Assembly (NCBI RefSeq): GCF_000429945.1
Contig: NZ_AUCV01000045.1
Location: forward strand, 1-52,151
Direction: 5' to 3'
Origin: Desulfogranum japonicum DSM 18378
GTDB lineage: Bacteria; Desulfobacterota; Desulfobulbia; Desulfobulbales; Desulfobulbaceae
Length of the DNA: 52,151 bases
In this document: positions 8,133-45,387 of the stretch, piece after piece
How positions within the stretch are numbered: the first letter of the stretch is position 1
Layout of the letters: each line of letters starts with the position of its first letter
Program-made: the position numbers and the translations under genes
Notes under the pieces: generated by a model
What the model was told of the DNA's origin: nothing
The model's input: only the letters and a program-made list of their open reading frames with translations
The model's database searches: none

Positions 8133-9032
8133 ATGAAGATATTCATCACAGGAGGCACCGGTTTTGTCGGCTCTGCCATTACAACCTCTCTACTGGAACT
8201 GGGACATGACGTCACGGTGATCGGCAGCAGTTCCAGATGCCGCCTCCCTGCCCACAACCACCTGCAGTATATTTCAGCAAACACTACCCGACCCGGTCAG
8301 TGGCAAGAGCGGGTTGCCGACCACGAGGCCTTTATTAATCTTGCAGGGAGATCTGTTTTCAATCTATGGACCGAAAAGTACAAACAAACAATTTACGACA
8401 GCCGCATCCTGACGACAAGAAACCTGGTGGAGGCAATGCCATCGGGCAATACCATTCTACTCAGTGCTTCGGCTGCCGGTTACTACGGCCATGGCGGAGA
8501 TAGTGAAAAACGTGAAACCGCCGAAAGCGGTGATGATTTTCTTGCCAGGGTGTGCGTTGACTGGGAACAGGAAGCCTACAAGGCCGAGGCAAAAGGCTCA
8601 CGGGTGGCGACAACGCGCTTTGGCGTGGTGCTCGGCAGGAACGGAGGTGCGATCAGCACTATGAAGCTCCCCTTCAAGCTTGGCCTGGGTGGCCCCATAG
8701 GCTCGGGTAAACAATGGTTCCCCTGGGTGCATATTGAAGATGTGGTCAAGGCAGCCCAGCACATTCTGCTTGGTGACAGTATACATGGCCCATTCAACTT
8801 TACAGCCCCCAAAACCGTTCGCCAGAAAGAGTTTGCAAAAACGATGGCCGCGGTTCTCAACCGGCCTGCCCTGCTGCCCACGCCGGCCTTTGTCATGAAA
8901 ACAGTTTTAGGAGAGTTTGGCAGGTCTCTCTTACAGGGACAAAAAACAGTTCCGGAAGCCTTGGAGACAAATGGTTTTATCTTTTCCTACCCGGAATTGA
9001 AGCCAGCTTTGCAAGAGATCCTCAATGACTGA
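8133..9032 (+). CDS. TIGR01777-family NAD-dependent epimerase/dehydratase-like protein
   Basis: A 299-residue atypical short-chain dehydrogenase. The N-terminus has the nucleotide motif ITGGTGFVGSAI, followed by FINLAGRSVFNLWTEKYKQ and SASAAGYYG in place of the usual YxxxK region. The C-terminus (about 245-299) matches the DUF1731 domain typical of the YfcH/SulA-like family. GAGGAGG six bases before the ATG is a strong ribosome-binding site. The stop overlaps the start of the next gene by eight bases, so translation is probably coupled. The substrate is unknown in this family. Confidence 0.88.
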   Translation: MKIFITGGTGFVGSAITTSLLELGHDVTVIGSSSRCRLPAHNHLQYISANTTRPGQWQERVADHEAFINLAGRSVFNLWTEKYKQTIYDSRILTTRNLVEAMPSGNTILLSASAAGYYGHGGDSEKRETAESGDDFLARVCVDWEQEAYKAEAKGSRVATTRFGVVLGRNGGAISTMKLPFKLGLGGPIGSGKQWFPWVHIEDVVKAAQHILLGDSIHGPFNFTAPKTVRQKEFAKTMAAVLNRPALLPTPAFVMKTVLGEFGRSLLQGQKTVPEALETNGFIFSYPELKPALQEILND

Positions 9033-10404
9033 AAACCATATCTTCACCTACAGCTCAGTTTTTCCATGCTCACCGGAAACGCTCTACACCTGGCACAGTC
9101 GTCAGGGAGCACTGGAGCGTCTTCTTCCTCCATGGGAAGACACTTCTGTACTTTCGCGCAAAGGCGGGATTGCACCTGGCGGTGAAGTATTGCTGAAAAT
9201 GCATGCAGGCCCGTTTCCGTATACCTGGCATGCAAGGCACATAGAAGATCAACCGGGCATCATGTTCAGGGACATACAGCACAAAGGCCCTTTTTCCACC
9301 TGGATACATACCCATATATTTTCAGCAGAAGGAACCGACTGCCGCCTGGAAGATCAGATAGAGTTCGCCTTGCCCGGACACAGCATACTTCCAGCCTTTG
9401 CAAATACACTGGTCGATGCCAGGCTGGAACGTATTTTCACCTACCGCCATAACACCTTGCGGCAGGACATCCAACTGCATAACCAATACAGCCAAAAGCC
9501 GCTGCGTATTCTTATCACAGGCAGTAGCGGTATTCTGGGCAGTGCACTGAAACCTCTGCTGACAACAGGAGGCCATGAAGTGTGGTCACTGGTGCGAAAA
9601 AAACCGGCACCGGAGGCACTGGAAATATATTGGAATCCGGAAGAAAATGAAATTGACACGACATCCTTTCCTGAATTCGACGGAATTATCCACCTGGCCG
9701 GCGATAATATTGGAGAGGGACGCTGGACAGACAACAAAAAACAACGGGTTATTGACAGCCGGGTTCAGGGAACAGGGCTCATTGCCCGCACTGTGGCCAA
9801 CATGTCTCCCAGACCGAAAGTTTTTCTCTCTGCATCGGCAGTCGGTTTTTACGGTAACTGTGAGGACTGCTGCATGCGCGAGGAAGATCAGTCAGGGCTT
9901 GATTTCATCTCTGATGTCTGTTCTCTTTGGGAACAGGCTGCCCGCCCCGCTGAAAAAGCTGGGATACGTACCGTATTCATGCGCATTGGCGTGGTGCTCA
10001 GCCCCAAAGGGGGAGCACTGCAACGACTGCTCAGCACGGCAAACATTGGTTTTGCCAAAAGTTTTGGCCGTGGAGAACAATACATCAGCTGGATATCCAT
10101 TGACGATATGATCAGCGTGATTCTGCATGCGCTGAAAACGGAGAGTATGCATGGACCAGTCAACATCGCGGCACCGACACCGGTAACCAACAGAGAACTG
10201 ATGCAAGCCCTGGCCCACGTTGTTAAACGTCCCCTGCTCCCCTCCATTCCAGCTGGATTTCTGGAAAAGATTTATGGCCAGATGGCCACAGAAGTACTCC
10301 TGTCCGGATGCAGGGTCTCCACGGATAAATTGCAGCAGTCAGGCTACCGATTTCGACACCCCGATCTGGTACAGGCTCTGCAGACCCTTTTAGGCAAACA
10401 CTAA
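9025..10404 (+). CDS. SRPBCC domain fused to TIGR01777-family epimerase
   Basis: A 459-residue two-domain protein. Residues 1-150 form a START/SRPBCC-like ligand-binding domain (FTYSSVFPCSPETLYTWHSR, EVLLKMHAGPFPYTWHARH, CRLEDQIEFALPG). From about residue 156 a second TIGR01777 epimerase begins with ILITGSSGILGSALKPLL and HLAGDNIGEGRW, then SASAVGFYG and the DUF1731 tail. It is paralogous to the overlapping upstream gene but has this extra N-terminal domain, an arrangement known in the family. The pair suggests processing of a lipid-like or aromatic ligand, but that is inference. Confidence 0.88.
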   Translation: MTENHIFTYSSVFPCSPETLYTWHSRQGALERLLPPWEDTSVLSRKGGIAPGGEVLLKMHAGPFPYTWHARHIEDQPGIMFRDIQHKGPFSTWIHTHIFSAEGTDCRLEDQIEFALPGHSILPAFANTLVDARLERIFTYRHNTLRQDIQLHNQYSQKPLRILITGSSGILGSALKPLLTTGGHEVWSLVRKKPAPEALEIYWNPEENEIDTTSFPEFDGIIHLAGDNIGEGRWTDNKKQRVIDSRVQGTGLIARTVANMSPRPKVFLSASAVGFYGNCEDCCMREEDQSGLDFISDVCSLWEQAARPAEKAGIRTVFMRIGVVLSPKGGALQRLLSTANIGFAKSFGRGEQYISWISIDDMISVILHALKTESMHGPVNIAAPTPVTNRELMQALAHVVKRPLLPSIPAGFLEKIYGQMATEVLLSGCRVSTDKLQQSGYRFRHPDLVQALQTLLGKH

Positions 10405-11877: not shown

Positions 11878-11906
11878 TTGACACACGCCAACGTGATATA
11901 TAAAAA
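11878..11906 (+). promoter_or_regulatory. putative promoter of the selenopeptide gene
   Basis: A consensus TTGACA (11878-11883) is followed by the AT-rich block GATATATAAAAATTTTATAT. Candidate -10 hexamers are TATAAA (15-base spacer) or TAAAAA (17-base spacer). The block itself is nearly palindromic (about 11897-11915) and could bind a regulator or melt easily. The distance to the peptide start is about 70 bases. Confidence 0.5.
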
Positions 11907-11976
11907 TTTTATATACCCAAGCAGTGTAATATAGGGCAAAGCTATACTGTACCCCCCAAATCCACAGGAGGACATG

Positions 11977-12297
11977 ATGCGTAACAAGGAGCTGAAAAAA
12001 TTTCTTGCAGGCCTGGGTGTGGCCGGACTTATCAGTGCTGGCGGCATAACCCTGCCAGGTGCGGCCCATTCTTCAGGTAGTGGCTGAGGAGGACATACCA
12101 GCACAGGTGGTGCTGAAAAGGCTGCAGAGGCTTCCGGCAGCAGTTGAGGCGGTCATAAAAGCAGCGTAGGTGACGCTGCAAAAGAACAGGCCCAAGAAGC
12201 GACAGAAGACGCCACACAAAAAATTGAGAATGAAGCAGGCGAACAGGTTGACGACGCTCCTCCTGAAAAAGCTGCTGGAAAAAGTGGCTGAAGCTGA
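11977..12297 (+). CDS. sbtA: selenobiotic-type precursor peptide with three selenocysteine (UGA) codons
   Basis: Read through three UGA codons (12085, 12145, 12289) the frame is 106 codons and stops at the UGA at 12295-12297. AGGAGG at 11966-11971 suits the ATG at 11977 better than the one at 11974. The N-terminus is a leader of basic residues and a hydrophobic helix (MRNKELKKFLAGLGVAGLIS, then TLPGAAHS). Sec37 and Sec57 lie in near-repeats SGSGUGGHTS and SGSSUGGHKS, and Sec105 in GKSGUS at the C-terminus. Between them is a long acidic Ala/Glu segment. Each UGA has a SECIS-like hairpin 17, 20 or 18 bases downstream. The radical SAM/SPASM gene next door matches the predicted selenobiotic peptide family (SbtA/SbtM, names from memory). 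The product and its bioactivity are unknown. A standard gene caller would stop at codon 36. Confidence 0.88.
12099..12115 (+). promoter_or_regulatory. SECIS-like hairpin for the first UGA
   Basis: The stem CAGCAC (12099-12104) pairs with GTGCTG (12110-12115) around loop AGGTG. Seventeen bases separate the UGA at 12085-12087 from the loop. Bacterial SECIS elements are short hairpins with a GG or GU in a small apical loop, located about 16-37 bases after UGA, where SelB binds. The hairpin lies within the coding sequence. Confidence 0.85.
12161..12179 (+). promoter_or_regulatory. SECIS-like hairpin for the second UGA
   Basis: A seven-pair stem GCAGCGT (12161-12167) / ACGCTGC (12173-12179) carries the same AGGTG loop as the first hairpin. 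Twenty bases separate the UGA at 12145-12147 from the loop. The stem sequence differs from the first hairpin while the loop is identical, as expected for a selected SelB-binding structure. Confidence 0.87.
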
Positions 12298-12303
12298 CAA
12301 CTC

Positions 12304-12320
12304 ATGTGCAGTTGGCACAT
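12304..12320 (+). promoter_or_regulatory. SECIS-like hairpin for the third UGA, located after the stop codon
   Basis: The stem ATGTGC (12304-12309) / GCACAT (12315-12320) has loop AGTTG. Eighteen bases separate it from the UGA at 12289-12291, matching the other two. It lies only 12 bases after the UGA at 12295-12297, too close for the usual SECIS spacing. This supports Sec at the first UGA of the pair and termination at the second. The hairpin is in the 3' untranslated region. Confidence 0.78.
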
Positions 12321-12335
12321 TCTCCCGTGATATGA

Positions 12336-12370
12336 ACGGTTGGTAACCATGGTGTTGCCGACCGTTTTTT
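12336..12370 (+). terminator. intrinsic terminator or attenuator between precursor and maturase genes
   Basis: ACGGTTGGTAAC (12336-12347) pairs with GTTGCCGACCGT (12354-12365), twelve pairs including two G-U, around a six-base loop. It is followed by T-rich sequence (TTTTTCTCTTTTC). It lies 38 bases after the peptide stop and 22 bases before the maturase ATG. Partial termination here would give far more precursor than maturase transcript, a usual RiPP arrangement. Confidence 0.82.
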
Positions 12371-12392
12371 CTCTTTTCAACTAACCGCTGCC

Positions 12393-13955
12393 ATGCCCCA
12401 TATAGCAGAAATCTATCCTGTCTGTTACAGGCTTCTGGGTAACACTATTCCACAGGGAAATACGAATGACCTTGCCCGATACCTCGCCAGGCATCCACAC
12501 CTCTGTACAGCCCACCCTTACCTCCCGGACTTGGCTCAACTGGAGGCCGCCCTCCATGAAGCACGTCAGAAACAGCCTCGCCTCCCTGATTCCGTTACGG
12601 AACGTACAGTCAACCCATCAGTGGAGCTGTTGCCCCTTAACTGGCAATTTCTTCCAGACTGTCTCGGCAATCAGCAATGCAAGCCGGTTCCAGAAAAAGA
12701 TCGGGTGCTCATCTGGTATCATCCTACAGAAAAAAAATGGATATGTCGCAGTGCAACCGGGCACGATCTGCTGGCCATGAAAATGGCCTGGGAACATCTG
12801 GACAGCAGAGAAGTTGCTGTAGAGTCGCAACTGACACTGGGAGCGGTAGACAACATACTCTTTGCAGCCCAGGCAAACGGTCTGCTTCTGGCCCCAGGCT
12901 CGCGGCTCACACGCCCAACCAGCTTTTCCCGAGAAAAATTTTCAGATAATCGCCTCTTTACAGCTCAAACCTTTACCCTGCAGTGGCACATCACCCAGAT
13001 CTGTGACCTACACTGCCGCCATTGTTACGACAGAAGCGAACGGGTTCCCTTGTCCCTTGAGCAAGGTATCCATATTCTGGATGAATTATATGCATTCTGT
13101 AATGCGCACCATGTCTATGCCCAGGTCAGCTTTACAGGTGGTAATCCTTTCCTTTACCCGCATTTTGACATCCTGTATCAGGAGGCTGCAGACCGTGGAT
13201 TCCTCACGGCTATTCTCGGCAATCCCGTTCCGCAAAACCGCCTTGAAAAAATCCTCGCCATACAGAAACCGGAATTTTTTCAGATTAGCCTTGAGGGACT
13301 GGAACCACATAACGACTATATCCGGGGACAGGGACATTTTCAGCGCTCTCTGCAATTTCTCGAATTACTGGCCGACCTGGACATCTTTTCCATGGTCATG
13401 CTTACCCTTACCCGCGCCAACCAGGGACAGGTTCTTGCCCTCGCACAGTTCCTGCAAGACAGAACGAATCTGTTTACCTTTAATCGGCTGGCACAGGTTG
13501 GAGAGGGAGCAGCTCTGGAATCTGTGCCCATCAGCACCTATGAAGCCTTTCTGCACAGCTATATTGAAGCGGCAGCAAAAAGCCCTCGCATACGACTCAA
13601 GGACAATTTATTCAACCTGGCATGCCCCCCTGTTAACCAGCCCATCACAGCCGGATGCGCAGGTCATGGATGTGGTGCAGCGTTTAATTTCCTCGCTCTT
13701 CTACCTGACGGCGAAATCCATGCCTGCAGAAAGCTGCCTTCAAAACTGGGCAACATATATGAAAGTTCGTTAAGCAGTATTTACCATTCACCGTTGGCAG
13801 AGCAATACCGAAATGGTCCTGCTGAATGCAGAGGCTGTACGCTGTATCCTATCTGCAGAGGATGCCTGGCAGTAGCCTACGGTTTTGACCTGGATATTTT
13901 CCAGCAGCGAGATCCCTACTGCTTCATCAATGAACGGAGAAACACTGTTGAATAA
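12393..13955 (+). CDS. sbtM: radical SAM/SPASM peptide maturase, selenobiotic family
   Basis: A 520-residue enzyme predicted to modify the upstream selenopeptide. The first 190 residues form an N-terminal domain that may bind the precursor leader. The radical SAM core starts at CDLHCRHC (Cys204, 208 and 211 ligate the SAM cluster), followed by QVSFTGGNPFLYP, the GGxP-type SAM contact. The C-terminal SPASM region provides cysteines for auxiliary [4Fe-4S] clusters: GCAGHGCG (from 422), HACRKLP (445), then CRGCTLYPICRGC and DPYC near the end. SPASM maturases typically form thioether or other Cys-linked bonds; a selenoether is inference here. No clear ribosome-binding site precedes the ATG. It converges with the acyltransferase gene, leaving seven bases between stops. 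Confidence 0.92.
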   Translation: MPHIAEIYPVCYRLLGNTIPQGNTNDLARYLARHPHLCTAHPYLPDLAQLEAALHEARQKQPRLPDSVTERTVNPSVELLPLNWQFLPDCLGNQQCKPVPEKDRVLIWYHPTEKKWICRSATGHDLLAMKMAWEHLDSREVAVESQLTLGAVDNILFAAQANGLLLAPGSRLTRPTSFSREKFSDNRLFTAQTFTLQWHITQICDLHCRHCYDRSERVPLSLEQGIHILDELYAFCNAHHVYAQVSFTGGNPFLYPHFDILYQEAADRGFLTAILGNPVPQNRLEKILAIQKPEFFQISLEGLEPHNDYIRGQGHFQRSLQFLELLADLDIFSMVMLTLTRANQGQVLALAQFLQDRTNLFTFNRLAQVGEGAALESVPISTYEAFLHSYIEAAAKSPRIRLKDNLFNLACPPVNQPITAGCAGHGCGAAFNFLALLPDGEIHACRKLPSKLGNIYESSLSSIYHSPLAEQYRNGPAECRGCTLYPICRGCLAVAYGFDLDIFQQRDPYCFINERRNTVE

Positions 13956-33332: not shown

Positions 33333-34064
33333 CTAATCCAGTTTAAATTCAATAACGGTTTCAACCCAGGCCTCCACCACACTGCCATTTTTGATTGCCG
33401 GCTTAAACTTCCAGCTCTTCACCGTCTTTTCCACTGCCTGCTCAAACTCTCCTGGAGGCTTTGCTGCAATGACTTTGAAGAGATCAGTTCTGCCGGATTT
33501 ATTCACCAGAAATCGTATATGAACAGATCCTTCAAATCCCTGTCGTTTGGCTCTATAGGGATACATGGGCTGAGGGGTGGCCACAGCCTGAGGCATCTTA
33601 TCCACCTCATCGGAATTGAATCTGGTACGAGGCGGCCCATGTTTGGGCAAAGCCGGCATTGACCCTTTCTTCAGGGTTTGGTTAAACTGTTGAGCAGAAA
33701 TTTTTATTCCTTTAACTCCAAGATCGGTTAAGCTTGGTATCTGCACCATGCTGCCAAAGGCCGCTCCTGTCGATTCATACGAAGTCTGCGGAACTTCAAT
33801 TTCCGGCATGTCTATTTCCGGCATCTCCATTTCAGGTGGTTCCGGTTTATCAGGCTCTGGCGGCGGCTCCGGCTCCTCTTCCATTTCATCGCTTTCCAGA
33901 AGTTCTTCTTCCTGCATGGCGATAAGCCGTATCTTGTCCAACTGGACATGTTCGCCATCAAAAGAGGCTTGCCGCAGCAGTGTGGGAGCAAGTGCCAAAA
34001 TGAAGAGACCAGCAGCAAAGCCGGTCACAGACAAGAAAAAGTTTCTCAACAACAACCCGTTCAT
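33333..34064 (-). CDS. tonB: TonB energy transducer
   Basis: From ATG 34064 the product has 243 residues. There is one N-terminal membrane helix (LFILALAPTLL region), then a Glu/Pro-rich linker (EEEPEPPPEPDKPEPPEMEM) with Pro-Glu-Met/Ile repeats. The C-terminal TonB domain contains ATPQPMYPYRAKRQGFEGSV, HIRFLVNKSGRTDLFKVIAA and VKSWKFKPAIKNGS. It spans the periplasm to energise receptors such as the two encoded at 43-48 kb. The acidic rather than Lys-rich linker resembles TonB2 types. The start lies within the exbD stop (TGATATG), implying translational coupling. Confidence 0.93.
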   Translation of the reverse strand: MNGLLLRNFFLSVTGFAAGLFILALAPTLLRQASFDGEHVQLDKIRLIAMQEEELLESDEMEEEPEPPPEPDKPEPPEMEMPEIDMPEIEVPQTSYESTGAAFGSMVQIPSLTDLGVKGIKISAQQFNQTLKKGSMPALPKHGPPRTRFNSDEVDKMPQAVATPQPMYPYRAKRQGFEGSVHIRFLVNKSGRTDLFKVIAAKPPGEFEQAVEKTVKSWKFKPAIKNGSVVEAWVETVIEFKLD

Positions 34065-34065
34065 A

Positions 34066-34497
34066 TCATCCCTTTGGCTTACTGGCTGAAACAGCAATAT
34101 TTTCTGCACCTGCTAAACGACACTGATCCAGAACGGCAATCAATTTTGACGTAGGGCATTCACCATCGGCGTCAATGATTACACCTCCGTCACTGTTTTC
34201 AGTTAAGAATATTTCCACCAGCCCTCGAACCCGCCTGAGCTCCACCTGGTTTCGATCAATGAACACATAGCCTTCCGGGGTGATACCAATGATCATGCCT
34301 GTGGCCTCCTTCATTTCAGCAGAGGCTGCTTCAGGACGATTGACCTCAATTCCGGATTCCTTAACAAAACTCGCGGTCACCAAAAAGAAAATCAACAGAA
34401 TAAAAATCATGTCGATCAGTGGCATCATGTCAATTTCAATATCGCTTCGATCGGAATCCAAACCATAAGATCCCCTTAAAGATCCAAGTCTGTTCAT
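34066..34497 (-). CDS. exbD: biopolymer transporter ExbD
   Basis: A 143-residue protein with a cytoplasmic N-terminus and a single membrane helix carrying the essential Asp at residue 29 (MMPLIDMIFILLIFFLVTA). The periplasmic domain has GIEVNRPEAASAEM, TPEGYVFIDRNQVEL and DADGECPTSKLIAVLDQCR. It works with ExbB to couple the proton gradient to TonB. It overlaps the exbB stop by four bases and the tonB start by coupling. Confidence 0.95.
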   Translation of the reverse strand: MNRLGSLRGSYGLDSDRSDIEIDMMPLIDMIFILLIFFLVTASFVKESGIEVNRPEAASAEMKEATGMIIGITPEGYVFIDRNQVELRRVRGLVEIFLTENSDGGVIIDADGECPTSKLIAVLDQCRLAGAENIAVSASKPKG

Positions 34498-35111
34498 AGT
34501 TCACACTCCTTGTCCAGCCATTGGACAATACCCCGTTGAAAAACGAGAAGGTCTTGCTGGATATTGTTGGCCTTTTTTTTCAACACCTGACCGATAAAAA
34601 TTCCAGGTATGGCAACCAGCAGCCCGGCCTGGGTGGTAATCATGGCCTCCTTAATGCCTGATGCCATAGCCTGGGCGTTTCCCATGCCGTACATGCCGAT
34701 AACCTTGAAGGTCTCCACCATTCCGGACACCGTACCAAACAGACCTAAAAGCGGGGCAACGGCTGCCAGGATAATAATGGTTGGAATATATTTCTGGATA
34801 GCACCAGCCTGTTTCCTGATCGCAGCATCAAACAACAACTTGTCAGCATCCTTATTCTGGCAGCGAGTGCCATTGTCGGTGGTCATGAAATGATTTATGG
34901 CCAAGGCTCGAGGGCTGTTTGAGGGACTTACTTGCCCTGATTTCAGGCAAATCATGGCATCAGAAAGACTGATCTGATCCCGACCTGTTCGCCAGACCCA
35001 ATCCGCTTTCAAGGCGATCAGGCCCCAGAGCCAGCCAGAAACGAGAAAAATGGGGATCATTACAGGCCCGCCAACCTCGATCAGCATCCAAAGATTTTCT
35101 AATATCTCCAT
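34494..35111 (-). CDS. exbB: MotA/TolQ/ExbB proton channel protein (ExbB2-like)
   Basis: A 205-residue protein with three membrane helices. The N-terminal helix is VGGPVMIPIFLVSGWLWGL, and the conserved pair later is IIILAAVAPLLGLFGTVSGM and EAMITTQAGLLVAIPGIFIG. The AAVAPLLGLFGTVSGM block is the MotA/TolQ/ExbB signature. It forms the proton-conducting pentamer with ExbD. It starts three bases after the TtpC-like gene. Confidence 0.94.
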   Translation of the reverse strand: MEILENLWMLIEVGGPVMIPIFLVSGWLWGLIALKADWVWRTGRDQISLSDAMICLKSGQVSPSNSPRALAINHFMTTDNGTRCQNKDADKLLFDAAIRKQAGAIQKYIPTIIILAAVAPLLGLFGTVSGMVETFKVIGMYGMGNAQAMASGIKEAMITTQAGLLVAIPGIFIGQVLKKKANNIQQDLLVFQRGIVQWLDKECEL

Positions 35112-35114
35112 GAC

Positions 35115-36518
35115 TTATGCCTGCGCACCATTATGCTTTAAAATTGCACCCATCAGAGCGATACCTTTTTCCTCCATATCCCGGGCCAGATTCTTAACCC
35201 TGCCGCCAAGAAAAGAAGCCACCATCATAATGGGGATTGCCACGGCAAGACCAACCTGGGTTGTTACCATGGCTTCTGAGATACCACCTGCCATGAGCCG
35301 GGGATCACCGGTACCGTGGGTGGTGATGACCTGAAAAGTGTTAATCATGCCGGTAACGGTTCCGAGCAGCCCCAGCAGTGGGGCCACAGCTGCCAGTACT
35401 TTGAGAGCCCCTATAAAACGCTCAAGCCTGGGGATTTGCGTCAGAATCGCCTCGGAGATGACACTTTCAATCACCTCCTGCTTCTCGTTTTTATGCTCAA
35501 GTCCGGCCATGAGGACCTTACCGGTGGGCCTGCTCTTGTGCGGTTGCGTCGTTTCCAGGGCTGCATCAAAGTTCCCCTGGAAAACCAGTTTCGTTACTTT
35601 GGTCATCAGGGCATCGGTATTGGAACGAACCTTGGAGAGAAAAAAGACCCGCTCAAGAGCAATGATTATTGCTGCAAGCCCAACCAGAAGAATCGGGATG
35701 ACCAATACCCCACCACTTCTCAGCCGCTCTTCCAGCGTTTCTTTCCTGGACAGTTTGCTGATGGCAACTCCACCGGAAATATCCAGGGGAGTAATGTCCT
35801 GCTTCCCGTCATAAAAAGCAGTGATGTTCCTTGAGAGAAAATACCCCGGATCACCACTCATAAGCAGACGATTGGAGCCAGGGCTGAAGGTAAGAAAACC
35901 ATTGCTGTTACCGTCGCTAAACAATGCCCCCATATGACCAAGCCTGATGATATCGGCATTTCTATCCTCACCGCTTCGATCAAGTATTGAGCCCTGGTAG
36001 CGGACATTATGTTTTCCAACATCAATATCATCGAAATACATGGAGAACAGGCCTTTCATGTCATCAAGATCAGCGATCCGTTTCCCGGTCAGATAGTCAT
36101 TCAAGCTCTCCATTCGCTGCGGCTGCTGGCTGGAATATGGAGATTTTTCAGAAATGGAAAGGAAGTTGCGGATATGATCAAGAAAGATATTATCCAGTTC
36201 TTCCTTGCTGGCCAGTCTGGTGGCAATCTCATGCTGGAGCTTATCCCGTTCATCGGCAAGGGATTTTACGACAGTTTTGTCTGTGGTCAGTTTTTCCTGT
36301 TCTGCTGTTACGGTGCCTTTGAGCTGAGCAATTTTCTGCAGTAAGTACTGACGTTTTTTTTCAATATCGGAACGTTGTTGCCGCTGCTCTGATACCGCCC
36401 GATCATGTCGTTTATGCACTTCCCTGGAAGCACTGTTGATATCCTGGGCCAGGACACTGGTCGTCCAGGACACGAGCAGGCAGAAAGCTGCAAAAAAGAT
36501 GTTTCTTATAGTATTCAT
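35115..36518 (-). CDS. TtpC-like ExbB-family protein with large periplasmic N-terminal domain (467 aa)
   Basis: A signal peptide (FFAAFCLLVSWTTSVLA) is followed by a coiled coil (about 30-130, with DIEKKRQYLLQKIAQLKGTV) and a soluble domain. From about residue 275 comes a full MotA/TolQ/ExbB domain (VLVIPILLVGLAAIIIALER, LAAVAPLLGLLGTVTGMINT, SEAMVTTQVGLAVAIPIMMV). This matches TtpC, the extra component of Vibrio TonB2 systems, which helps TonB2 reach receptors. Two ExbB-type proteins in tandem (this and the next gene) are characteristic of that operon. Confidence 0.87.
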   Translation of the reverse strand: MNTIRNIFFAAFCLLVSWTTSVLAQDINSASREVHKRHDRAVSEQRQQRSDIEKKRQYLLQKIAQLKGTVTAEQEKLTTDKTVVKSLADERDKLQHEIATRLASKEELDNIFLDHIRNFLSISEKSPYSSQQPQRMESLNDYLTGKRIADLDDMKGLFSMYFDDIDVGKHNVRYQGSILDRSGEDRNADIIRLGHMGALFSDGNSNGFLTFSPGSNRLLMSGDPGYFLSRNITAFYDGKQDITPLDISGGVAISKLSRKETLEERLRSGGVLVIPILLVGLAAIIIALERVFFLSKVRSNTDALMTKVTKLVFQGNFDAALETTQPHKSRPTGKVLMAGLEHKNEKQEVIESVISEAILTQIPRLERFIGALKVLAAVAPLLGLLGTVTGMINTFQVITTHGTGDPRLMAGGISEAMVTTQVGLAVAIPIMMVASFLGGRVKNLARDMEEKGIALMGAILKHNGAQA

Positions 36519-36534
36519 TGTGCAGCAATCCCCT

Positions 36535-37332
36535 CTACTTTTGTGTTTCAGGCCGGGTAACAGGCAATTTACTTAAACCCACCAGGCGAATGCCCTCTGC
36601 CATCTCAATGGCATCACGAATGGAGGAAGTATCATTCTCCATGATCTGCCATCCCGAACTGCTCCCTTGCCAATGGTAGGCCATTTCACTGTCAAGGGTC
36701 ATGGCATAGAGACCCACACGTCCCACTTGAAGTATCTTGACCCTGCGGCCTTGCCCACCGATCTCAATCTCATTTTCAAATACCTGCACACGGTGACCAA
36801 GATCAACTTCCCTGGCCACTGCATCAAGTACTGCCCTGGCCTTATCAAGTAGGCCCATGTCATAGTCATTGAGCACCAGGCTGGCATGGTGAATGGATTT
36901 ACGACGCTCTGTCATGTTACAGGGGAGATCAACATCAAGACTCTCCTGCAGTTTTGCCAGGTTTTTCTCCAGAATCGGCAGCAATTTCAAATTGACGGCT
37001 TCCATGGCCTTTGTCTTTTCCTTCAGTGCAATTATCTTGTGTTCCAGATCACCTTTATAGATTTCAAGTTTCTTTCGCTGCCACTGGATATGATCCAGCA
37101 GGTTCTCCAGATCCTCAATCTCTCCCAAAAGCCGATGCTCTTCCTCTATCCAGGATTCATGAATGTGCTGGGATGCAATCCCCACCTCAACCGCTTTTTC
37201 TGAAACCTTTTTCACCTCAGTCGCACTGGTTGCCCAAGATGCTTGCGCCACGACCAGAATTGCCATACACAGCACCAACGCCAGCCCCCACTGCACAACC
37301 TGGCCGGATTTAGCTGATTGATTACTTGTCAC
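36535..37332 (-). CDS. DUF3450 family periplasmic coiled-coil protein
   Basis: A 265-residue product with a start GTG overlapping the stop of the 49-codon ORF. A hydrophobic signal (WGLALVLCMAILVVAQASWA) is followed by a coiled coil (about 40-115, EIEDLENLLDHIQWQRKKLE-like) and a C-terminal domain with CNMTERRKSIHHA, EIGGQGRRVKILQVGRVGLY and WQIMENDTSSIRDAIEMAEG. DUF3450 proteins precede ttpC in Vibrio-type TonB2 operons. A structural role in the periplasm is inferred from context. Confidence 0.83.
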   Translation of the reverse strand: MTSNQSAKSGQVVQWGLALVLCMAILVVAQASWATSATEVKKVSEKAVEVGIASQHIHESWIEEEHRLLGEIEDLENLLDHIQWQRKKLEIYKGDLEHKIIALKEKTKAMEAVNLKLLPILEKNLAKLQESLDVDLPCNMTERRKSIHHASLVLNDYDMGLLDKARAVLDAVAREVDLGHRVQVFENEIEIGGQGRRVKILQVGRVGLYAMTLDSEMAYHWQGSSSGWQIMENDTSSIRDAIEMAEGIRLVGLSKLPVTRPETQK

Positions 37333-38049: not shown

Positions 38050-39828
38050 TTAAGCCCCACCCAATACCTCCTCATCGTTTCCTGATCTCATCTGCCAACT
38101 GCGGGCAGTCATTCGTTTTGTCCATAATTGATGATAAATACCCTGTTGTTCAAGCAGGTCTTCATGTTTACCGGTTTCAACTATCCGTCCCTTGTCTATG
38201 ACCAGAATCTGGTCCGCCCGCCGAATTGTGGACAGCCGATGGGCAATGACAATCAGTGTCTTGTTTTTAACCAGTTCTGAAATGGCCTCCTGGATATATT
38301 TTTCATTGTCAGGGTCAATGCTTGCCGTGGCTTCGTCCAAAAGGACAATGGGGGCGTCTTTGAGGATGGCTCGGGCAATGGAAATTCGTTGTTTTTCACC
38401 GCCGGAAAGAGAGCTTCCCGATTCAGTGACCATGGTATCATACCCATCTGGCAGCGCGCTGATAAACTCATGGCACCGGGCCTGACTAGCTGCGGCCATG
38501 ATCTCCTCGTCTGTGGCATCTGGCTTTCCAAAGCGGATATTGTTTTTTATGGTGTCATTGAACAGATAAACCCTCTGGAACACCATGCTGATATTGCTGA
38601 GCAGGCAATCGCTGGTCATATCCATGATGTCTGTACCACCTAAAGTGATGCTTCCCCGCTTTGGATCCCAGAATCTGACAATGAGATTGGCAATGGTGGT
38701 TTTCCCGGAACCGGACTGGCCAGCAAGAGCTGTCATGGTGCCAGGTTTTGCTGTAAAGCTGACATCCTTGAGCACCATTGTATCCTCAGCGTTATCACCA
38801 TAGGAAAAGCTGACATCATGAAATTGTATTTCATGGTTAGCGAGTTTTGTTTCCTGGCCGTTCACTCCCATCAAAGGGTGATTTTGCAATTCTTCGTAGC
38901 GGTTGAGCCCGGCCTTTCCCACTAAAAAGGTAACAATGGCTCCCCCCAGATTGATGGCCGGCAGAAACACATAAAGGGCAAAGATCACAAAAATCAGGGC
39001 AAACTCAATGCCGAGTTTTCCCTGTTTGTACAGGATCAGGCTTGTCCACACCATCAGTGCCGTTGCCGTACAAAAGGCGGCTTTGTAGACAAAGGCTGGC
39101 GGGATGAACCGTTTTTCAAAACGGATACTGCCCTCTTTTGTTTCCTGGATTTCATTTTTCAGGGTTGCCGCTTTATCACCGGCAAGATTAAAGGCCTTGA
39201 TCACCGAAATGCCCATGGCGTATTCCAGTATGGCTTCTGTGAGTTTGCCCTGCTGCTCCTGCCTGAGAACAGCTTCCGTCCGGCAGGCACTCTCTATCCA
39301 TTTGGAAAGAAAAATGGCTGACACCGACACCACAACGGCAATCAGACCAATGCGGATATCGGCAATACAGAGCATGGTGCAGCCGATGGTTGTCATGGCT
39401 ACTGCATTGATCATGATATCCAGATCGCGTACGGATTTTTCCTCAACAAAGGTAAGATCAATGGAAATGATCGCAGCAACCCTGCCAAGGTTTCCCTTGG
39501 TAAAAAATCCCATGGGAAAATAACGAAACCGGTCACCAATGCTCAGCCGCTCTCTTTCACATGCATTGTAAATGGAAAGATACATGCAGTTGTCAATGAC
39601 CCAGGCCAGTACCACTCTCACAAGAACCGCCACCAGCATCACGACAAAAACGGTAGTAATATCGCTTGGAATGAATGTTCCTCCCGCAAGCTTGGCAAAA
39701 GCATATAAAAGCATGGCCACCGGAATATTTGCGAAAATGCTTTCAAAAAAGGCCAGTACAATTCCCAGTTGAACCCGTTTTTTATCCTTGCCCAGAAAGG
39801 CCATGATGTGCTTGTAATAATCGATCAT
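38050..39828 (-). CDS. ABC transporter, fused TMD-NBD, siderophore importer type (YbtP/YbtQ-like)
   Basis: From ATG 39828 the product has 592 residues. Residues 1-310 form a six-helix exporter-fold TMD. The ATPase has Walker A GQSGSGKTT, Q-loop SNISMVFQRVYLFNDTIKNN, signature LSGGEKQR, Walker B PIVLLDEATASID and switch His in VIAHRLSTI. It pairs with the adjacent homologue. Heterodimers of this kind beside a YbtX-like MFS gene resemble YbtPQ of yersiniabactin uptake, which import ferric siderophore despite the exporter fold. The ATG overlaps the stop of the upstream gene (TGATG), with GGAGGAG ahead. The substrate is inferred from context. Confidence 0.87.
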   Translation of the reverse strand: MIDYYKHIMAFLGKDKKRVQLGIVLAFFESIFANIPVAMLLYAFAKLAGGTFIPSDITTVFVVMLVAVLVRVVLAWVIDNCMYLSIYNACERERLSIGDRFRYFPMGFFTKGNLGRVAAIISIDLTFVEEKSVRDLDIMINAVAMTTIGCTMLCIADIRIGLIAVVVSVSAIFLSKWIESACRTEAVLRQEQQGKLTEAILEYAMGISVIKAFNLAGDKAATLKNEIQETKEGSIRFEKRFIPPAFVYKAAFCTATALMVWTSLILYKQGKLGIEFALIFVIFALYVFLPAINLGGAIVTFLVGKAGLNRYEELQNHPLMGVNGQETKLANHEIQFHDVSFSYGDNAEDTMVLKDVSFTAKPGTMTALAGQSGSGKTTIANLIVRFWDPKRGSITLGGTDIMDMTSDCLLSNISMVFQRVYLFNDTIKNNIRFGKPDATDEEIMAAASQARCHEFISALPDGYDTMVTESGSSLSGGEKQRISIARAILKDAPIVLLDEATASIDPDNEKYIQEAISELVKNKTLIVIAHRLSTIRRADQILVIDKGRIVETGKHEDLLEQQGIYHQLWTKRMTARSWQMRSGNDEEVLGGA

Positions 39829-41591
39829 CAGATCTCTCCTCCAACGGCGATACTCCACCCGGCAATATTATTATGGGCATCCCACAGTTGTTGATAAATC
39901 GGGCTGGTTTCCACCAGTTCCCGGTGTGTTCCTGTTGTGTGCACTTTGCCTTTGTCCAGCACCACAATCTGATCTGCATGGACAATGGTGGATAAACGAT
40001 GGGCAATAACAATAACGGTTTTCCCGCAGATTAATTCATTTAAGGCAGACTGGAGCTTGTCCTCATTTTCAGGATCGGTAAAGGAGGTCGCCTCGTCCAG
40101 GATAACAATGGGGGCATCTTTAATAATGGCCCGGGCAATGGTTATTCTTTGCCGTTCCCCGCCCGACAGCGTGGCACCGGAAGCGGTGACAACGGTATCA
40201 TAGCCCTTGGGCGCCTCCATTATAAAATCATGGCAACACGCTGCTTTTGCCGCCTTGATGATCTCATCCCTGGTGGCGTTGGGCTTGCCCAGGCGGATGT
40301 TCTCTTCAATGGACATTTGAAACAAAAAGTTATCCTGGGACACATAGCTGATGCACTGCATCAAATGGTCAAAGGAAATATCTTTAAGGGCGATCCCGCC
40401 AATTTTTATTTCCCCGGCCTGATATTCCCAGAAGCGCATCACAAGCATGGCCAGGGTGCTTTTCCCGGCACCAGATTCCCCCACAAGTGCGGTTAGGCTG
40501 TTTTGGGAAAATGAGAGATTGATATCCTCCAGGACATTGTTGTCGATATAGGCAAAAGAGAGATTGGCAATATCAATATCATAGTGTTCCGGCAGTTCCG
40601 GGCTACTGCTCTGCTGCAGTTCCTCTTCCTTGAGAACTGCCGTGATGTGTGAAGATTTTTCAAGCAACATGGCGACAGACGGGGCAAAGGCCATTAACCT
40701 GAGAAGCGGGACGCCCATGCTCAAAGCCAGCATGACGCAAAGAACCAGCGCGCCGATGCTTAACTGGCCATTCATATAAAGGTTCAACCCTAAAGGCAGG
40801 GAAAATAATAGGGGAGAGGTCATGATAGCCTTGTAAACAGCCGTGTACTTCCACGATGATTTTGCCCAGTCCGCCGTATAGACTTTGAAATCAGTGACTG
40901 AATCGCCATATTTTTTGTAGGAGGAGGCGGTCTGGTTGAACACCTTGATCACCTCCATGCCGTTGATATAGTCAATAATGTTGTTGTTCATGTTTCTTGA
41001 AGAGGCATAGTAGGCTTTAAGCTTTTTAACCCCTTGCATAAACATGAGCATAAAGGCGGCCATGCCGATGATGACCACGCCAAGCACTGCCAAAGTCATT
41101 TTAAAACTGACTGCCAAAAGGACAGCAAAGGCCACTGCCAGCGATGCAAAGTTGCCAATGCCCTCGGGAATCATGTGGGCAAGAAGCATTTCCATTTCTT
41201 CCACATTATCCACAAAAATTTTCTTAATATCCCCATGTCCTCTTTTACGAACATTGCCCATGGGTATTTTTAAAAGCTTTTGGGCAAGGGCCTGTCTTAA
41301 ATCAGCCAGGATGTTGAAGGCCACAATGTGAGAATGATTGAGCCCCATATATTCCAGCGCGTTTTTCAGCAGCAAAAAAGTCACAACAAGCAGCGCTGCA
41401 AAAGATATATACGCTGAGGTTAAAGAAGAGTGGGCAAATATTTTTGTAAAGATATCAGCCACGACAAGATAAACTGCAATATTTGCCGCGCCGCTTAAAA
41501 GAAGTTCAAAGACACAGAGAATGAATGTTCTCCGGTAAGGCCGGGCAAAGCGGAGTATCCCGGTTGGTTTCTGTAGTATTTTTTCCATCAC
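39828..41591 (-). CDS. ABC transporter, fused TMD-NBD, siderophore importer type (YbtP/YbtQ-like)
   Basis: A 587-residue half transporter. The TMD (about 20-310) has LELLLSGAANIAVYLVVADI-type helices. The NBD has Walker A GESGAGKST, Q-loop ISYVSQDNFLFQMSIEENIR, signature LSGGERQR, Walker B PIVILDEATSFTD and switch VIAHRLSTIVHADQ. It starts at the stop of the MFS gene (four-base overlap) and is translationally coupled to the second ABC gene. The three proteins probably act as one inner-membrane import module. Confidence 0.87.
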   Translation of the reverse strand: MMEKILQKPTGILRFARPYRRTFILCVFELLLSGAANIAVYLVVADIFTKIFAHSSLTSAYISFAALLVVTFLLLKNALEYMGLNHSHIVAFNILADLRQALAQKLLKIPMGNVRKRGHGDIKKIFVDNVEEMEMLLAHMIPEGIGNFASLAVAFAVLLAVSFKMTLAVLGVVIIGMAAFMLMFMQGVKKLKAYYASSRNMNNNIIDYINGMEVIKVFNQTASSYKKYGDSVTDFKVYTADWAKSSWKYTAVYKAIMTSPLLFSLPLGLNLYMNGQLSIGALVLCVMLALSMGVPLLRLMAFAPSVAMLLEKSSHITAVLKEEELQQSSSPELPEHYDIDIANLSFAYIDNNVLEDINLSFSQNSLTALVGESGAGKSTLAMLVMRFWEYQAGEIKIGGIALKDISFDHLMQCISYVSQDNFLFQMSIEENIRLGKPNATRDEIIKAAKAACCHDFIMEAPKGYDTVVTASGATLSGGERQRITIARAIIKDAPIVILDEATSFTDPENEDKLQSALNELICGKTVIVIAHRLSTIVHADQIVVLDKGKVHTTGTHRELVETSPIYQQLWDAHNNIAGWSIAVGGEI

Positions 41592-42967
41592 ATTCCTCTG
41601 GCTGTTTCCTGTAGTTTATCCTGCATAAAAACAGGGGTAACCGCCTTTTTGTTTCCCTCGGTCAGTGAGGGGTTAAAACAAAGTGAAAGTAAAAGTGCCA
41701 GACATGCAACAAGCCATGCCATAAGCACTACGGCAAGGTATCCGGCCAAACCGGCTAAAGCCACAGCACCCGATGCTGTTGCAATCCTTACAAGTGAGTA
41801 AACACTGAACTGGAGGGTAAAATCGGTGGCAGGACTGCTCTTTGCAGCACGATCCATCATCATTGTGCTCATCAAGGTTATGAAAGCTCCATGGACAATA
41901 AAAGGGGCCATCACCGCACAACACATGGTCCAAGCCCCTCGGGGGCCGACAAGGGGCAGTGCCAGCATTGGCAGAGCAATCACCTGGGCCGCAGCAACAG
42001 TGATCAGCACAGAGGAACGGCTCCGCCAGCGAAGCAGCCGGCTTGTACAAAGTGAAGACAGGGCAGCGACGGCAGACCCCAAAATGTTTAAAACCAGGCC
42101 AATGTGCTCCATGGACCAGCCAAGATCAAGCATCATGGGTGCTGATATGGCGTAGGCAATGCCGCATCCCGCAGGATAGACCAGTAATAACAACAGCCAT
42201 TTTCCGTGTCCCGGAACTTTCCAGAAGGTTAAAAGTCTTTTCAGCGACAAGGAGGTGTTCAGTGTGTCGGTTTTACAGGTTGTTTCCCGGAAACAGAGCA
42301 CCTGTACCCAGCAGACCAGGGTGCAGGATGCCATCACCAGCATACTACCTTTCCAACCGATATGGGGATATGCCATCAGGACGACACCCCCACCAAGTAT
42401 ATTGCCAACCATCCCGCCGGCAAATTGAATCCCACTGCCAAGTCCCCGTTCTTTTCTGGACAGCAGACGGCAGGCCAGCCCGTCTGCGGCAATGTCCTGG
42501 GTAGAGGAGAAAAAGGCCAGCACCATGCATCCAGCCAGGACCGTCCCAAACTGCGTTGCAATGTCCAGAAAGCTGATAACGACCAGACTCAGCACCATGC
42601 CGGTCTGGGTCAACAGCAGCCAGCCCCGGTAATGGCCCATCCGCTTTATGCCAAAGCGGTCCACCAGGGGAGCCCACAGAAACTTGACAACCCAGAACAT
42701 TCCCAGAAGATATATCCCCCCCAATTGCTCAAGCGGCATTCCCTGCCGCCGCATGATCACCACCAGCGCGATCATGAAAAAACTGACCCCCATAAACTGG
42801 GTCATGTACAGGCTTGCCAGCAGCAGCCAGGTGCTCAGTGGTTTGCGTTGAGCGTGTTCTGCTACCGGTATCCCCGTATAAACATCATCAGTCGGATTAT
42901 GTTTTACTCCCGACATCGCCTGTATTCCAGTTTGTATATTCTCACCAGGTGTCAAAGGGAACCCCAT
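41588..42967 (-). CDS. MFS transporter of the YbtX/RhtX-FptX siderophore group
   Basis: A 459-residue (442 from the internal ATG 42916) twelve-helix transporter. Typical blocks are LYMTQFMGVSFFMIALVVIM, LGMFWVVKFLWAPLVDRFGI with the cytoplasmic RFGIKRMGHYRGWLLLTQ loop, and FFSSTQDIAADGLACRLL. This resembles AmpG-related siderophore importers (YbtX, RhtX, FptX). The start is uncertain: the first ATG is immediately next to family 1 copy F and has no ribosome-binding site. It lies between the receptor gene and the ABC pair. A partial copy of this gene survives at 45505-45625. Confidence 0.87.
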   Translation of the reverse strand: MGFPLTPGENIQTGIQAMSGVKHNPTDDVYTGIPVAEHAQRKPLSTWLLLASLYMTQFMGVSFFMIALVVIMRRQGMPLEQLGGIYLLGMFWVVKFLWAPLVDRFGIKRMGHYRGWLLLTQTGMVLSLVVISFLDIATQFGTVLAGCMVLAFFSSTQDIAADGLACRLLSRKERGLGSGIQFAGGMVGNILGGGVVLMAYPHIGWKGSMLVMASCTLVCWVQVLCFRETTCKTDTLNTSLSLKRLLTFWKVPGHGKWLLLLLVYPAGCGIAYAISAPMMLDLGWSMEHIGLVLNILGSAVAALSSLCTSRLLRWRSRSSVLITVAAAQVIALPMLALPLVGPRGAWTMCCAVMAPFIVHGAFITLMSTMMMDRAAKSSPATDFTLQFSVYSLVRIATASGAVALAGLAGYLAVVLMAWLVACLALLLSLCFNPSLTEGNKKAVTPVFMQDKLQETARGM

Positions 42968-42970
42968 ATA

Positions 42971-43133
42971 AGGGTCACGGAAAAAATGAATTATTCAATC
43001 TTGCTTGTCTCTCAATTCGGTAAAGTCGTCGCCTCAATGGCTCAATACGGCCAGTATGGAACCATTGAGACAACAACATTACCAAACCGATATCCTACGC
43101 AATTTTTGGATATTTATTCTTTTCCGCGACCCT
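42971..43133 (-). repeat. family 1 MITE-like element, copy F (163 bp)
   Basis: Begins AGGGTCACGGAAAAAATGAA and ends CTTTTCCGCGACCCT, in the same orientation as copy A. Inner arms GCCTCAATGG and CCATTGAGAC pair around CTCAATACGGCCAGTATGGAA. It occupies the gap between the receptor gene (ends 43177) and the MFS gene, four bases from the latter's possible start. Confidence 0.83.
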
Positions 43134-43176
43134 AAAGTCAGACTTTTATATTTTTAAGGCAGCTCACACAAAACAA

Positions 43177-45228
43177 CTAAAATCGGTAATTTAGCTGAAA
43201 ACCAACCTCGCCGGGATTACTGTAAATGGTGTAAAAACCGCTGTAGTAGCCATAGGAATCGTATTCCTCGTCAAATATATTCTTGCCGTACAGATAAAGA
43301 TCAAAATGTTCTGTCTCATATCCGATTTTGGCGTTAACAATCTGGTAGGGATCCCGTTTGTATTTGTTGGCCTTGTCAAAATACATTTCACCATAACCAA
43401 TCAGATCAGCCCTGGCATAGAAACCGTTTTCCCAACGATACTGGCCACCAATATTAAAGGTATATTCAGGCGAATACGTCGTTTTATTTCCTGCATAATC
43501 CCCTGAGGCATCGTTAAAATCATCAAATTCAAAGTTGGTATAACCGAAACCGGCCGTCACGCTCAGGCCACGGGTTATCCTGCCCGTCAATTCCAACTCA
43601 ACCCCTTTACCGGTTGCTTCGGCTGCGTTGGTTACATACGATGATGCCGATGAAATAGTTTCCGACACCTGCATGTCGGAAATATCCATCAGGTAAACAC
43701 TGGCGTTCGCGATCAACCGGTTATCAAAAAAGGTGTTTTTCACCCCTATTTCATAGGACCAGAGTTCCTCTTCATCAAAGGTGTAATACGCTGAATCCGT
43801 GGCTTGAAAATTATATCCACCGGAACGATATCCTTTGGATACGCTCAGGTACGTCATAACTTCGGGCAACGGACGGTATTCCAGGGCAAGTTTGGGAGTT
43901 ATGGCATCCCATGAATCATCGGACTGCCTTGCGTTGATATGATCTTCAAAGTCCTTTTGGGTTGTCTCGTAGCGCAACCCGCCGACAAGACTGAATTGTT
44001 GGGACAGGGGATAAGTAAGATTGGTAAAAACAGCATAGGTGTTTCCATCAATATCCCTGTCAGTAACACTGGGCGTGCTCCCGGAAACCGACTTAAAATC
44101 AAAATTTGCCTCATCCTTATCGCCATATATGCCTGCAATCCACCTGATGCCGTCATTTTCATAGCTCAAGCGCAGTTCCTGAGACAGTGTAGAGTATTGA
44201 TTGTCTTTATACATATGAGACAAGGTTGCGCTGGTGAAATCAAAATCACTGATAGCCTCATCATCATAGACTCTTCTCGACGTAACAGATGTCAATACAA
44301 AGGCGTCGTTAATTTCATAATTGACTTTAAGGGCTTGCGTTTGATCTGAGCTTGTGTTTTCCCCCTCTAAATTGGAAGTTACCTTGCGATAATCGGGCAA
44401 AGGCACACCATATAAAAATGCTGCATATTCCCCCAGGTTTTCACGTGCCCCGTCATGGTCATTTTGGAGTTGTGTTGCAATAAGAGAGATGTCCAATTGA
44501 TCTGTGGGGATCCAGCGCAGATGGGCCCTGCCAAACCAGTCTTCCCTGTCATCGGCAGCATCGTCGGTTACCGTATTTTTGACAATACCGTCTTGCTGAG
44601 TAAATTTTCCGGCAATTCCCAAAAAGAGTTTGTCTTTCTGAAGAGGACCACTGATCTTGACAGTATACGTTTGCGTCAAGCTGTCATCATTCTCTGAAGA
44701 GAGCCATGTACCGATATCGGCGGACACGCTGCCTCTAAAATCATTGTCCGGTTGGCGGGTAATAATGTTGATTACACCTGCTTCGGTGTTTTTCCCGTAC
44801 AGGGTACCCTGCGGCCCCCTGAGTACCTCCACCCGTTCAATGTCAACAAATGTACTCTCAAACCCGGCCAATGACTGGAACGGAACACCGTCTATGAAAA
44901 GTCCCGTGGAAAGCGTGAGGGTTTCAAAGGGTGCATGAATTCCTCTTAAAGATGGGGTATTCATACCGGCAGAGCCGTGGCTAAACAGCATTAAACCAGG
45001 AGAATAATCCGCCAAATCAGACAAAGATTCAATTTTTGCGTCCTCAATCTCCTGTCCCGTGAATGCGATAACCGCCATGGATACATCCTGAATGCTTTCC
45101 TCCCGCTTCTGAGCAGTTACAACAATGGGTTCCAGGGTGGTTTCTGTAGTTTCTTCAGCCTGGATAAACTCCACCCCAAAAAAGCTCCCGGTGGCGACCA
45201 GGCAAACAAAAATTTCTCTCACTCTCAT
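43177..45228 (-). CDS. TonB-dependent outer-membrane receptor 1 (FyuA-like)
   Basis: A 683-residue receptor with a signal peptide (IFVCLVATGSFFGVEFIQA), a TonB box (EPIVVTAQKREESIQDVSMA) and a plug domain containing SLSDLADYSPGLML, TGLFIDGVPFQ and VEVLRGPQGTLYGKNTEAG. A 22-strand-type barrel ends in the terminal Phe of LNYRF. It matches the ferric-siderophore receptor group of FyuA type. The neighbouring YbtPQX-like genes point to a phenolate or related siderophore. It is about as long as receptor 2 and highly similar, especially in the last 250 residues, and has its own copy of the AraC-type promoter. Confidence 0.92.
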   Translation of the reverse strand: MRVREIFVCLVATGSFFGVEFIQAEETTETTLEPIVVTAQKREESIQDVSMAVIAFTGQEIEDAKIESLSDLADYSPGLMLFSHGSAGMNTPSLRGIHAPFETLTLSTGLFIDGVPFQSLAGFESTFVDIERVEVLRGPQGTLYGKNTEAGVINIITRQPDNDFRGSVSADIGTWLSSENDDSLTQTYTVKISGPLQKDKLFLGIAGKFTQQDGIVKNTVTDDAADDREDWFGRAHLRWIPTDQLDISLIATQLQNDHDGARENLGEYAAFLYGVPLPDYRKVTSNLEGENTSSDQTQALKVNYEINDAFVLTSVTSRRVYDDEAISDFDFTSATLSHMYKDNQYSTLSQELRLSYENDGIRWIAGIYGDKDEANFDFKSVSGSTPSVTDRDIDGNTYAVFTNLTYPLSQQFSLVGGLRYETTQKDFEDHINARQSDDSWDAITPKLALEYRPLPEVMTYLSVSKGYRSGGYNFQATDSAYYTFDEEELWSYEIGVKNTFFDNRLIANASVYLMDISDMQVSETISSASSYVTNAAEATGKGVELELTGRITRGLSVTAGFGYTNFEFDDFNDASGDYAGNKTTYSPEYTFNIGGQYRWENGFYARADLIGYGEMYFDKANKYKRDPYQIVNAKIGYETEHFDLYLYGKNIFDEEYDSYGYYSGFYTIYSNPGEVGFQLNYRF

Positions 45229-45282
45229 TTTATTACCCTTGTCTAAATAAATAGCACTAGCCTATCAGCAAAATTACCCCAT

Positions 45283-45342: not shown

Positions 45343-45387
45343 AATTATTAGAGAGTACACTCCTGCATTCTATGAAAAGAAGGAGAA

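Follow-up and report, generated by a model that had tools for sequence, protein, structure and literature searches.

A further SbtA-family precursor gene with three predicted selenocysteine codons, next to an SbtM maturase gene in Desulfogranum japonicum

Background

SbtA and SbtM, also referred to as a "selenobiotic" or "selenobacteriocin" system, pair a RiPP precursor with a radical SAM/SPASM maturase. Lewis et al. 2021, as described in the accessible part of PMC11002830, reported that an SbtM forms thio(seleno)oxazoles in vitro on Cys and Sec (selenocysteine, U) substrates. An inventory from 2026 (PMC13188914), which covers 119 families or subfamilies of prokaryotic selenoproteins, gives, in the sections available, the vast majority with one Sec and a small subset with two to three, the SbtA family being entered with two. 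No account of the function of SbtA peptides was found in a literature search of partial scope. Two other systems bear comparison. Bufferins consist of a precursor BufA, an MNIO enzyme BufB and a partner BufC, contain thiooxazoles and sequester copper in the periplasm; their precursors possess general-secretion signal peptides, with approximately 16% of one family predicted to carry lipoprotein signals (PMC12452194, available text). Thiooxazoles are reported to absorb near 305 nm (PMC12668002). DybA, a RiPP-lipoprotein hybrid of the MNIO (ChrH-type) group, uses the lipoprotein pathway for export and lipidation, and an MNIO RiPP was lipidated in E. coli (PMC12636315, available text).

The gene examined here lies within the window, the whole stretch of 52,151 nucleotides of Desulfogranum japonicum DSM 18378 that was analysed, and is a further precursor of the already known SbtA family. 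The leader profile, the SGUG-type core and the adjoining radical SAM/SPASM maturase are those of SbtA/SbtM. Set against that system as reviewed in 2026 with two Sec (PMC13188914, sections available), the window's precursor has three and that of a same-genus relative (G088) has four, and the window's gene ends in a UGA following its last Sec-UGA. The system resembles bufferins and other 5-thiooxazole RiPPs in its thiooxazole-type product and in a precursor whose leader looks like a signal peptide, by motif of lipoprotein type in a subset (PMC12452194, available text, for bufferins), but it employs a radical SAM maturase instead of an MNIO, and uses Sec where bufferins have Cys. A Pfam scan of 39 reading frames of the window reported neither MNIO nor DUF2063 domains. 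The likeness to DybA lies in a precursor that uses the lipoprotein pathway (PMC12636315, available text), lipidation of the SbtA relatives being predicted only, whereas enzyme and core are unlike those of the SbtA system.

The precursor gene, its maturase and the Sec machinery

All features of the locus described here lie on the forward strand. The sbtA gene (11977-12297) was assigned from its translation and its match to TIGR04081. It is an open frame of 106 codons from ATG 11977 if the UGA codons at 12085, 12145 and 12289 are read through; an alternative ATG is present at 11974, and a Shine-Dalgarno sequence AGGAGG was read at 11966-11971. This frame and its length had been put forward in a previous sequence-only reading, and re-reading of the sequence gave the same count. 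The three Sec codons were located at 12085-12087 (residue 37, SGUGGH), 12145-12147 (residue 57, SSUGGH) and 12289-12291 (residue 105, the penultimate residue, KSGUS), so that the core motifs with in-frame UGA are SGUGGH, SSUGGH and SGUS. The predicted product is MRNKELKKFLAGLGVAGLISAGGITLPGAAHSSGSGUGGHTSTGGAEKAAEASGSSUGGHKSSVGDAAKEQAQEATEDATQKIENEAGEQVDDAPPEKAAGKSGUS. A sigma-70-like promoter match (TTGACA, 18 nt, AAAAAT; 11878-11907) is weak, with one found and 0.9 expected by chance.

A profile search of the leader against TIGR04081 (SbtA thio(seleno)oxazole RiPP precursor), a 27-residue leader profile with a curated cut-off of 30.5 bits, gave 49 bits (3.7e-13) over 11977-12057, and nothing else in the genome exceeded the cut-off. 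The adjoining sbtM gene (12393-13955) encodes a radical SAM/SPASM maturase of 520 aa and was identified with TIGR04082 and Pfam. Its TIGR04082 match spans 12393-13952 with 653 bits (2.7e-196; cut-off 350), and Radical_SAM and SPASM domains, the motif CDLHCRHC at residues 204-211 and a Cys-rich C-terminal region were identified in the protein. Comparison with solved structures revealed distant homology, with three matches, the best being SkfB (4.6e-8). These profile matches bear out the earlier proposal of a selenobiotic RiPP precursor beside a radical SAM/SPASM maturase; the statement made with it, that the product of the family is not characterised, is contradicted by the in vitro thio(seleno)oxazole formation reported for an SbtM (PMC11002830, accessible part).

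Between sbtA and sbtM, a terminator-like 14-bp hairpin followed by a T run was found at 12334-12367 by pattern search and folding (-20.8 kcal/mol for the fold of 12326-12380), two intrinsic-terminator-like patterns being found in the region where 1.0 was expected. A strong terminator-like hairpin at this position would favour production of the precursor in excess of the maturase.

The genome was found to contain selC (tRNA-Sec, 75 bits), selB (360), selA (612) and selD (367), each above its cut-off. All four genes that the sequence-only reading had proposed to check are present, and the absence of selB or selC that it had named as counter-evidence did not appear. The finding of selB carries little discriminating weight, since 353 of the 395 sampled genomes have it. 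The selD of this genome (contig C27, L140:1441-1680) itself has an in-frame UGA and an SECIS-like hairpin of -13.5 kcal/mol, and is a selenoprotein-type gene.

SECIS-like hairpins of the window's gene

A hairpin search agreed exactly with the earlier note: the loops AGGTG, AGGTG and AGTTG lie 17, 20 and 18 nt downstream of their respective UGAs. Hairpin 1 (12099-12115) has 6 bp, hairpin 2 (12161-12179) has 7 bp, and hairpin 3 (12304-12320) has 6 bp and lies wholly past the stop codon. The bacterial SECIS model (PMC13188914, sections available) specifies an apical loop of 3-9 nt, an upper stem of 4-16 bp, a G at loop position 1 or 2, 16-37 nt from UGA to loop and a minimum free energy of at most -7.5 kcal/mol. 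All three hairpins agree with the model in loop size, stem length, G position and spacing. For 42-nt folds the minimum free energies were -10.2 kcal/mol at site 1 and -11.9 kcal/mol at site 2, both passing the -7.5 threshold, but at site 3 the minimum fold of the 42 nt from 12289 was another structure of -7.0 kcal/mol, above the threshold, hairpin 3 itself being weak at -6.1 kcal/mol.

Dinucleotide shuffling gave p = 0.042, 0.002 and 0.039 for sites 1, 2 and 3, and p = 1 for the UGA at 12295. Across both strands of the window, 62 of 2087 TGA trinucleotides, the three sites included, had a hairpin of -6.1 kcal/mol or lower, a cut set by hairpin 3 as the least stable of the three. With synonymous-codon shuffling, site 2 alone was individually significant (p 0.033; site 1, p 0.18), and the value for site 3 (p 0.36) comes from a test that is invalid there because the downstream sequence of this site lies past the stop. 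Nothing in an Rfam scan of the window reached the gathering score, so the SECIS elements were tested with a purpose-made hairpin rule. Taken by itself, the hairpin evidence from the window's gene is moderate, and the case for SECIS is made by the family.

SECIS hairpins across the family

The rule demands a perfect 6-bp stem with a loop of 3-5 starting 16-23 nt downstream, with no choice of a best fold. Such a hairpin was found at 93 of 113 Sec codons, as opposed to 5 and 4 of 113 when the interval was slid to 28-35 or 6-13 nt. Among the Sec sites having any hairpin, 109 of 110 have a G at loop position 1 or 2, compared with 262 of the 485 hairpin-bearing control codons from these genes (1086 control codons examined). 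Internal Sec sites averaged -8.8 kcal/mol versus -3.0 kcal/mol for synonymous recodings; 44 of 71 reached p <= 0.05 and nine p <= 0.01, in a set that omits G318 and sites with fewer than 16 downstream residues and includes the window's third site, whose downstream sequence is past the stop. Cys codons in similar context had no hairpin in 11 of 16 cases and one below -3 kcal/mol in four, two of the 16 being leader and not core Cys.

In an alignment of five internal sites from the window and G088, three of six pairs were changed on both sides and all 30 cells pair, as against at most 50% pairing and no double change in slid versions. The last hairpin shows a C-G to T-A exchange between the two (ATGTGC..GCACAT in the window, ACGTGC..GCACGT in G088). 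In L012 (Nitrospiria), with two nearby SbtA genes, three of five Sec codons, all internal, are without a model hairpin, and the C-terminal ones have one. The third core of a further precursor, L028 (G301), reads SGCSG with a Cys codon and keeps a G-loop hairpin of -8.4 kcal/mol 20 nt downstream, as if Sec had recently been replaced by Cys and the SECIS had persisted.

Distribution of the family and number of Sec

SbtM was identified in 39 of 395 genomes of the same phylum. An SbtA leader match was found in 37 of these 39, over the cut-off in 36, and tRNA-Sec over the cut-off in 37; it was not found over the cut-off in G047 and G194, which have SbtM and Sec-type precursors. Precursor and maturase lie on separate contigs in three of the 39 (G088, G339 and G376), where the precursor regions hold, by eye, housekeeping-type genes. 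Of the two SbtM genomes that gave no leader match, G289 has an incomplete SGUG peptide where a contig ends, and G129 (L066) has, near SbtM, a leader-like, Cys-rich protein in which all such positions are Cys and none is Sec.

A set of 48 distinct precursors was assembled from 38 genomes, the window included, with two named genomes (L011 and L012) added and with G128, G129 and G289 outside it. Four sequences (the window's, two of G318 and one of G282) were shortened to end at the UGA that was taken as their stop. No Sec was counted in three precursors, one in four, two in 17, three in 21 and four in three, giving 113 Sec codons in all and at least two Sec in 41 of 48. The residues preceding U were SG (70 of 113), SS (19), GS (13), TG (7), SA (3) and TS (1). 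In G088 the four Sec occur as SGUGAK, SGUGAK, SGUAGH and a C-terminal KSGUSG. Two Cys-rich SbtA-like proteins, L055 (G029) and L057 (G181), have a single C-terminal Sec among six and nine Cys, respectively.

With 21 of 48 precursors carrying three Sec, the commonest number, three Sec are ordinary for SbtA. The window's peptide had been described in the sequence-only reading as unusually Sec-rich, which holds in relation to selenoproteins in general (PMC13188914, sections available) but not within SbtA. Several Sec per precursor are the rule in this family, against an upper range of two to three in the available sections of that inventory. The comparison with homologues proposed in the sequence-only reading found that relatives have UGA at this motif, or more rarely Cys, and the ordinary stops or unrelated codons that would have spoken against Sec did not appear.

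Among relatives in the protein database, the four entries inspected for their ends (P0004, P0005, P0006 and P0009) break off after GSG, immediately short of the first UGA, and P0003 and P0012 have Trp stored at the Sec positions, best read as gene calls made with UGA as Trp. These Trp entries and truncations mean that database annotation would hide Sec residues of this family. Reassignment of UGA to Trp in the organism itself was considered and rejected, TGA being the commonest stop of the neighbouring ORFs (164 of 372, counted among mechanical ORFs of at least 150 aa).

C-terminal Sec beside the stop codon

In 32 precursors a Sec codon lies at most five residues from the end. The loop of the best hairpin was found past the stop codon in all 32, with 31 of these hairpins at -5 kcal/mol or lower, and the TAG or TAA is often inside the stem in the same register, as in GTAACGC/GCGTTAC (L051), GTAGCGC/GCGCTAC (L038) and ATAGTGC/GCACTAT (L012). 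Families with names ending in "-star" in the available sections of PMC13188914 (GUXX-star, UXPK-star and KCU-star) have, judged by their names, a Sec beside the stop, and we infer that the SECIS of these families would extend beyond the stop as well. The C-terminal Sec of the window's gene differs in being accompanied by other Sec and in lying within a RiPP core motif.

The stops of the 32 genes are TAG in 18, TAA in 13 and TGA in one, which is the window's. Read-through ends at TAA or TAG by construction, so that UGA stops become visible only as odd tails, four of which were noticed among 45 Sec genes. In the window's gene the stop UGA (12295-12297) follows one codon after the last Sec-UGA (UGA-AGC-UGA). 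UGA 12289 stands 18 nt and UGA 12295 only 12 nt before the loop of hairpin 3, and the hairpin search found no G-loop hairpin for 12295. G088 ends in GKSGUSG followed by TAA, and L054 and L056 end in SGUS followed by TAG; a MAFFT alignment does not settle whether the window's UGA is aligned with the TAA of G088. On account of the spacing, and of L054 and L056 also ending in SGUS, UGA 12295 is probably the stop. In the window's gene two UGAs, with one codon between them, would thus share one hairpin past the stop, and spacing alone would decide between Sec and termination, a rule which UGA-AGC-UGA makes directly testable in vivo.

Leader, export and gene neighbourhood

The SbtA leader (residues 1-32, 11977-12072) resembles a general-secretion signal and ends in AHS, the cleavage site having been placed by eye after inspection of motifs. 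It is built of Lys/Arg followed by a hydrophobic Gly/Ala/Leu stretch. Using simple motifs and not SignalP, a lipobox-like G-C was found to end the leader in 16 of 48 precursors, with the Cys at residues 23-29 (residue 29 in ten), and an AxA-type site at about the same place in 24; eight, including the window's, have neither.

Neighbours were compared in 43 regions, comprising 36 of the 39 SbtM genomes, four named loci and three regions around off-contig precursors (G240, G047 and G113 were omitted). SbtM was clustered in 31 of the regions, and the next cluster, of nine regions, is made up of ORFs lying opposite SbtM in antisense, so that 40 of 43 hold SbtM. No third gene recurring widely was found in the 43 regions, the widest other clusters covering eight and five regions, and the cluster of eight is by eye a sensor-kinase type protein. 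A metal P-type ATPase was considered as a partner and rejected, since by eye it lies approximately 4-5 kb from SbtM in only two regions (L113 and L137); the third member of its cluster (L120) looks like an antisense ORF.

Proposed pathway and alternative explanations

In the pathway that we propose, the three UGAs would be decoded as Sec by the SelA/B/C/D system predicted from the same genome, and SbtM would convert the Sec of SGU(G/S) motifs to selenooxazoles, as reported for another SbtM. The leader would double as a general-secretion signal, so that no dedicated protease or transporter would be needed to export the modified peptide, which in relatives bearing a lipobox would be lipid-anchored. 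Decoding as Sec is very likely, most of all for sites 1 and 2 and somewhat less so for site 3. Formation of selenooxazoles is likely by analogy with the SbtM studied in vitro, and export is rather favoured by the leader. Taken as a whole, the model of an SbtA precursor with three predicted Sec, selenooxazoles made by SbtM, a stop at UGA 12295 and export appears probable.

Were UGA 12085 an ordinary stop and the remainder non-coding, the four database relatives cut exactly before their first UGA would be correctly annotated, but the motif is conserved past the UGA across precursors, hairpins follow it and some relatives have Cys at the equivalent motif, which makes this scarcely credible. The third Sec could also be encoded by UGA 12295, or by both 12289 and 12295, with translation running to a later stop, as the frame is open beyond 12295 if that UGA is read through. 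The distance of just 12 nt to the loop, the lack of a G-loop hairpin found for 12295 and the TAA and TAG endings of G088, L054 and L056 argue against this, as does a read-through tail that by eye resembles no other precursor, and we regard it as very improbable that 12295 encodes Sec.

The remaining alternatives accept that Sec is encoded and concern its use. Inefficient reading of the UGAs would give a selenium-gated switch, producing a 36-residue leader without selenium and the full three-Sec peptide when selenium is plentiful. Three serial UGAs would multiply read-through losses, and two of 48 leader proteins (the second genes of L054 and L056) are without Sec and core motif, but such a switch would not need two to four conserved cores, and the motif is repeated and conserved on either side of each UGA with the maturase adjoining; we hold it to be improbable. 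Another explanation is a small exported redox selenoprotein of which SbtM modifies one site only, or Sec only incidentally. It would be in keeping with a leader like a secretion or lipoprotein signal, with the range of none to four Sec among relatives and with the separate contigs of maturase and precursor in three of 39 genomes. It is nonetheless unlikely given the precursor leader in 37 of 39 SbtM genomes and the in vitro chemistry of SbtM on both Cys and Sec (PMC11002830, accessible part).

For the proposed modified and exported peptide, the export- or lipobox-type leader and the two-gene system would point to metal or redox chemistry in the envelope rather than to a classical secreted antibiotic. 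From the leader type and the parallels with bufferins and MNIO lipoproteins, a tentative suggestion can be made that SbtA products are exported multi-selenooxazole peptides, one third of them lipid-anchored, which might hold soft metals (copper, mercury) in the envelope as a radical-SAM-built counterpart of bufferins. If this were true, precursors with mostly two to four Sec would place them among the most Sec-dense bacterial gene products.

Other features of the window

Two adjoining genes of TIGR01777-family oxidoreductases with an 8-base overlap were identified at 8133-10404, the second with an N-terminal polyketide-cyclase-like domain. A row of genes at 33333-37332 encodes TonB, ExbD, two ExbB-type and two DUF3450-containing proteins, one protein having both ExbB-type and DUF3450 domains. 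At 38050-48861 lies what looks like a cluster for metallophore uptake and export; it comprises a pair of ABC-transporter genes with a transmembrane region, one MFS gene, two TonB-dependent receptors of 683 aa in tandem and an AraC-type regulator.
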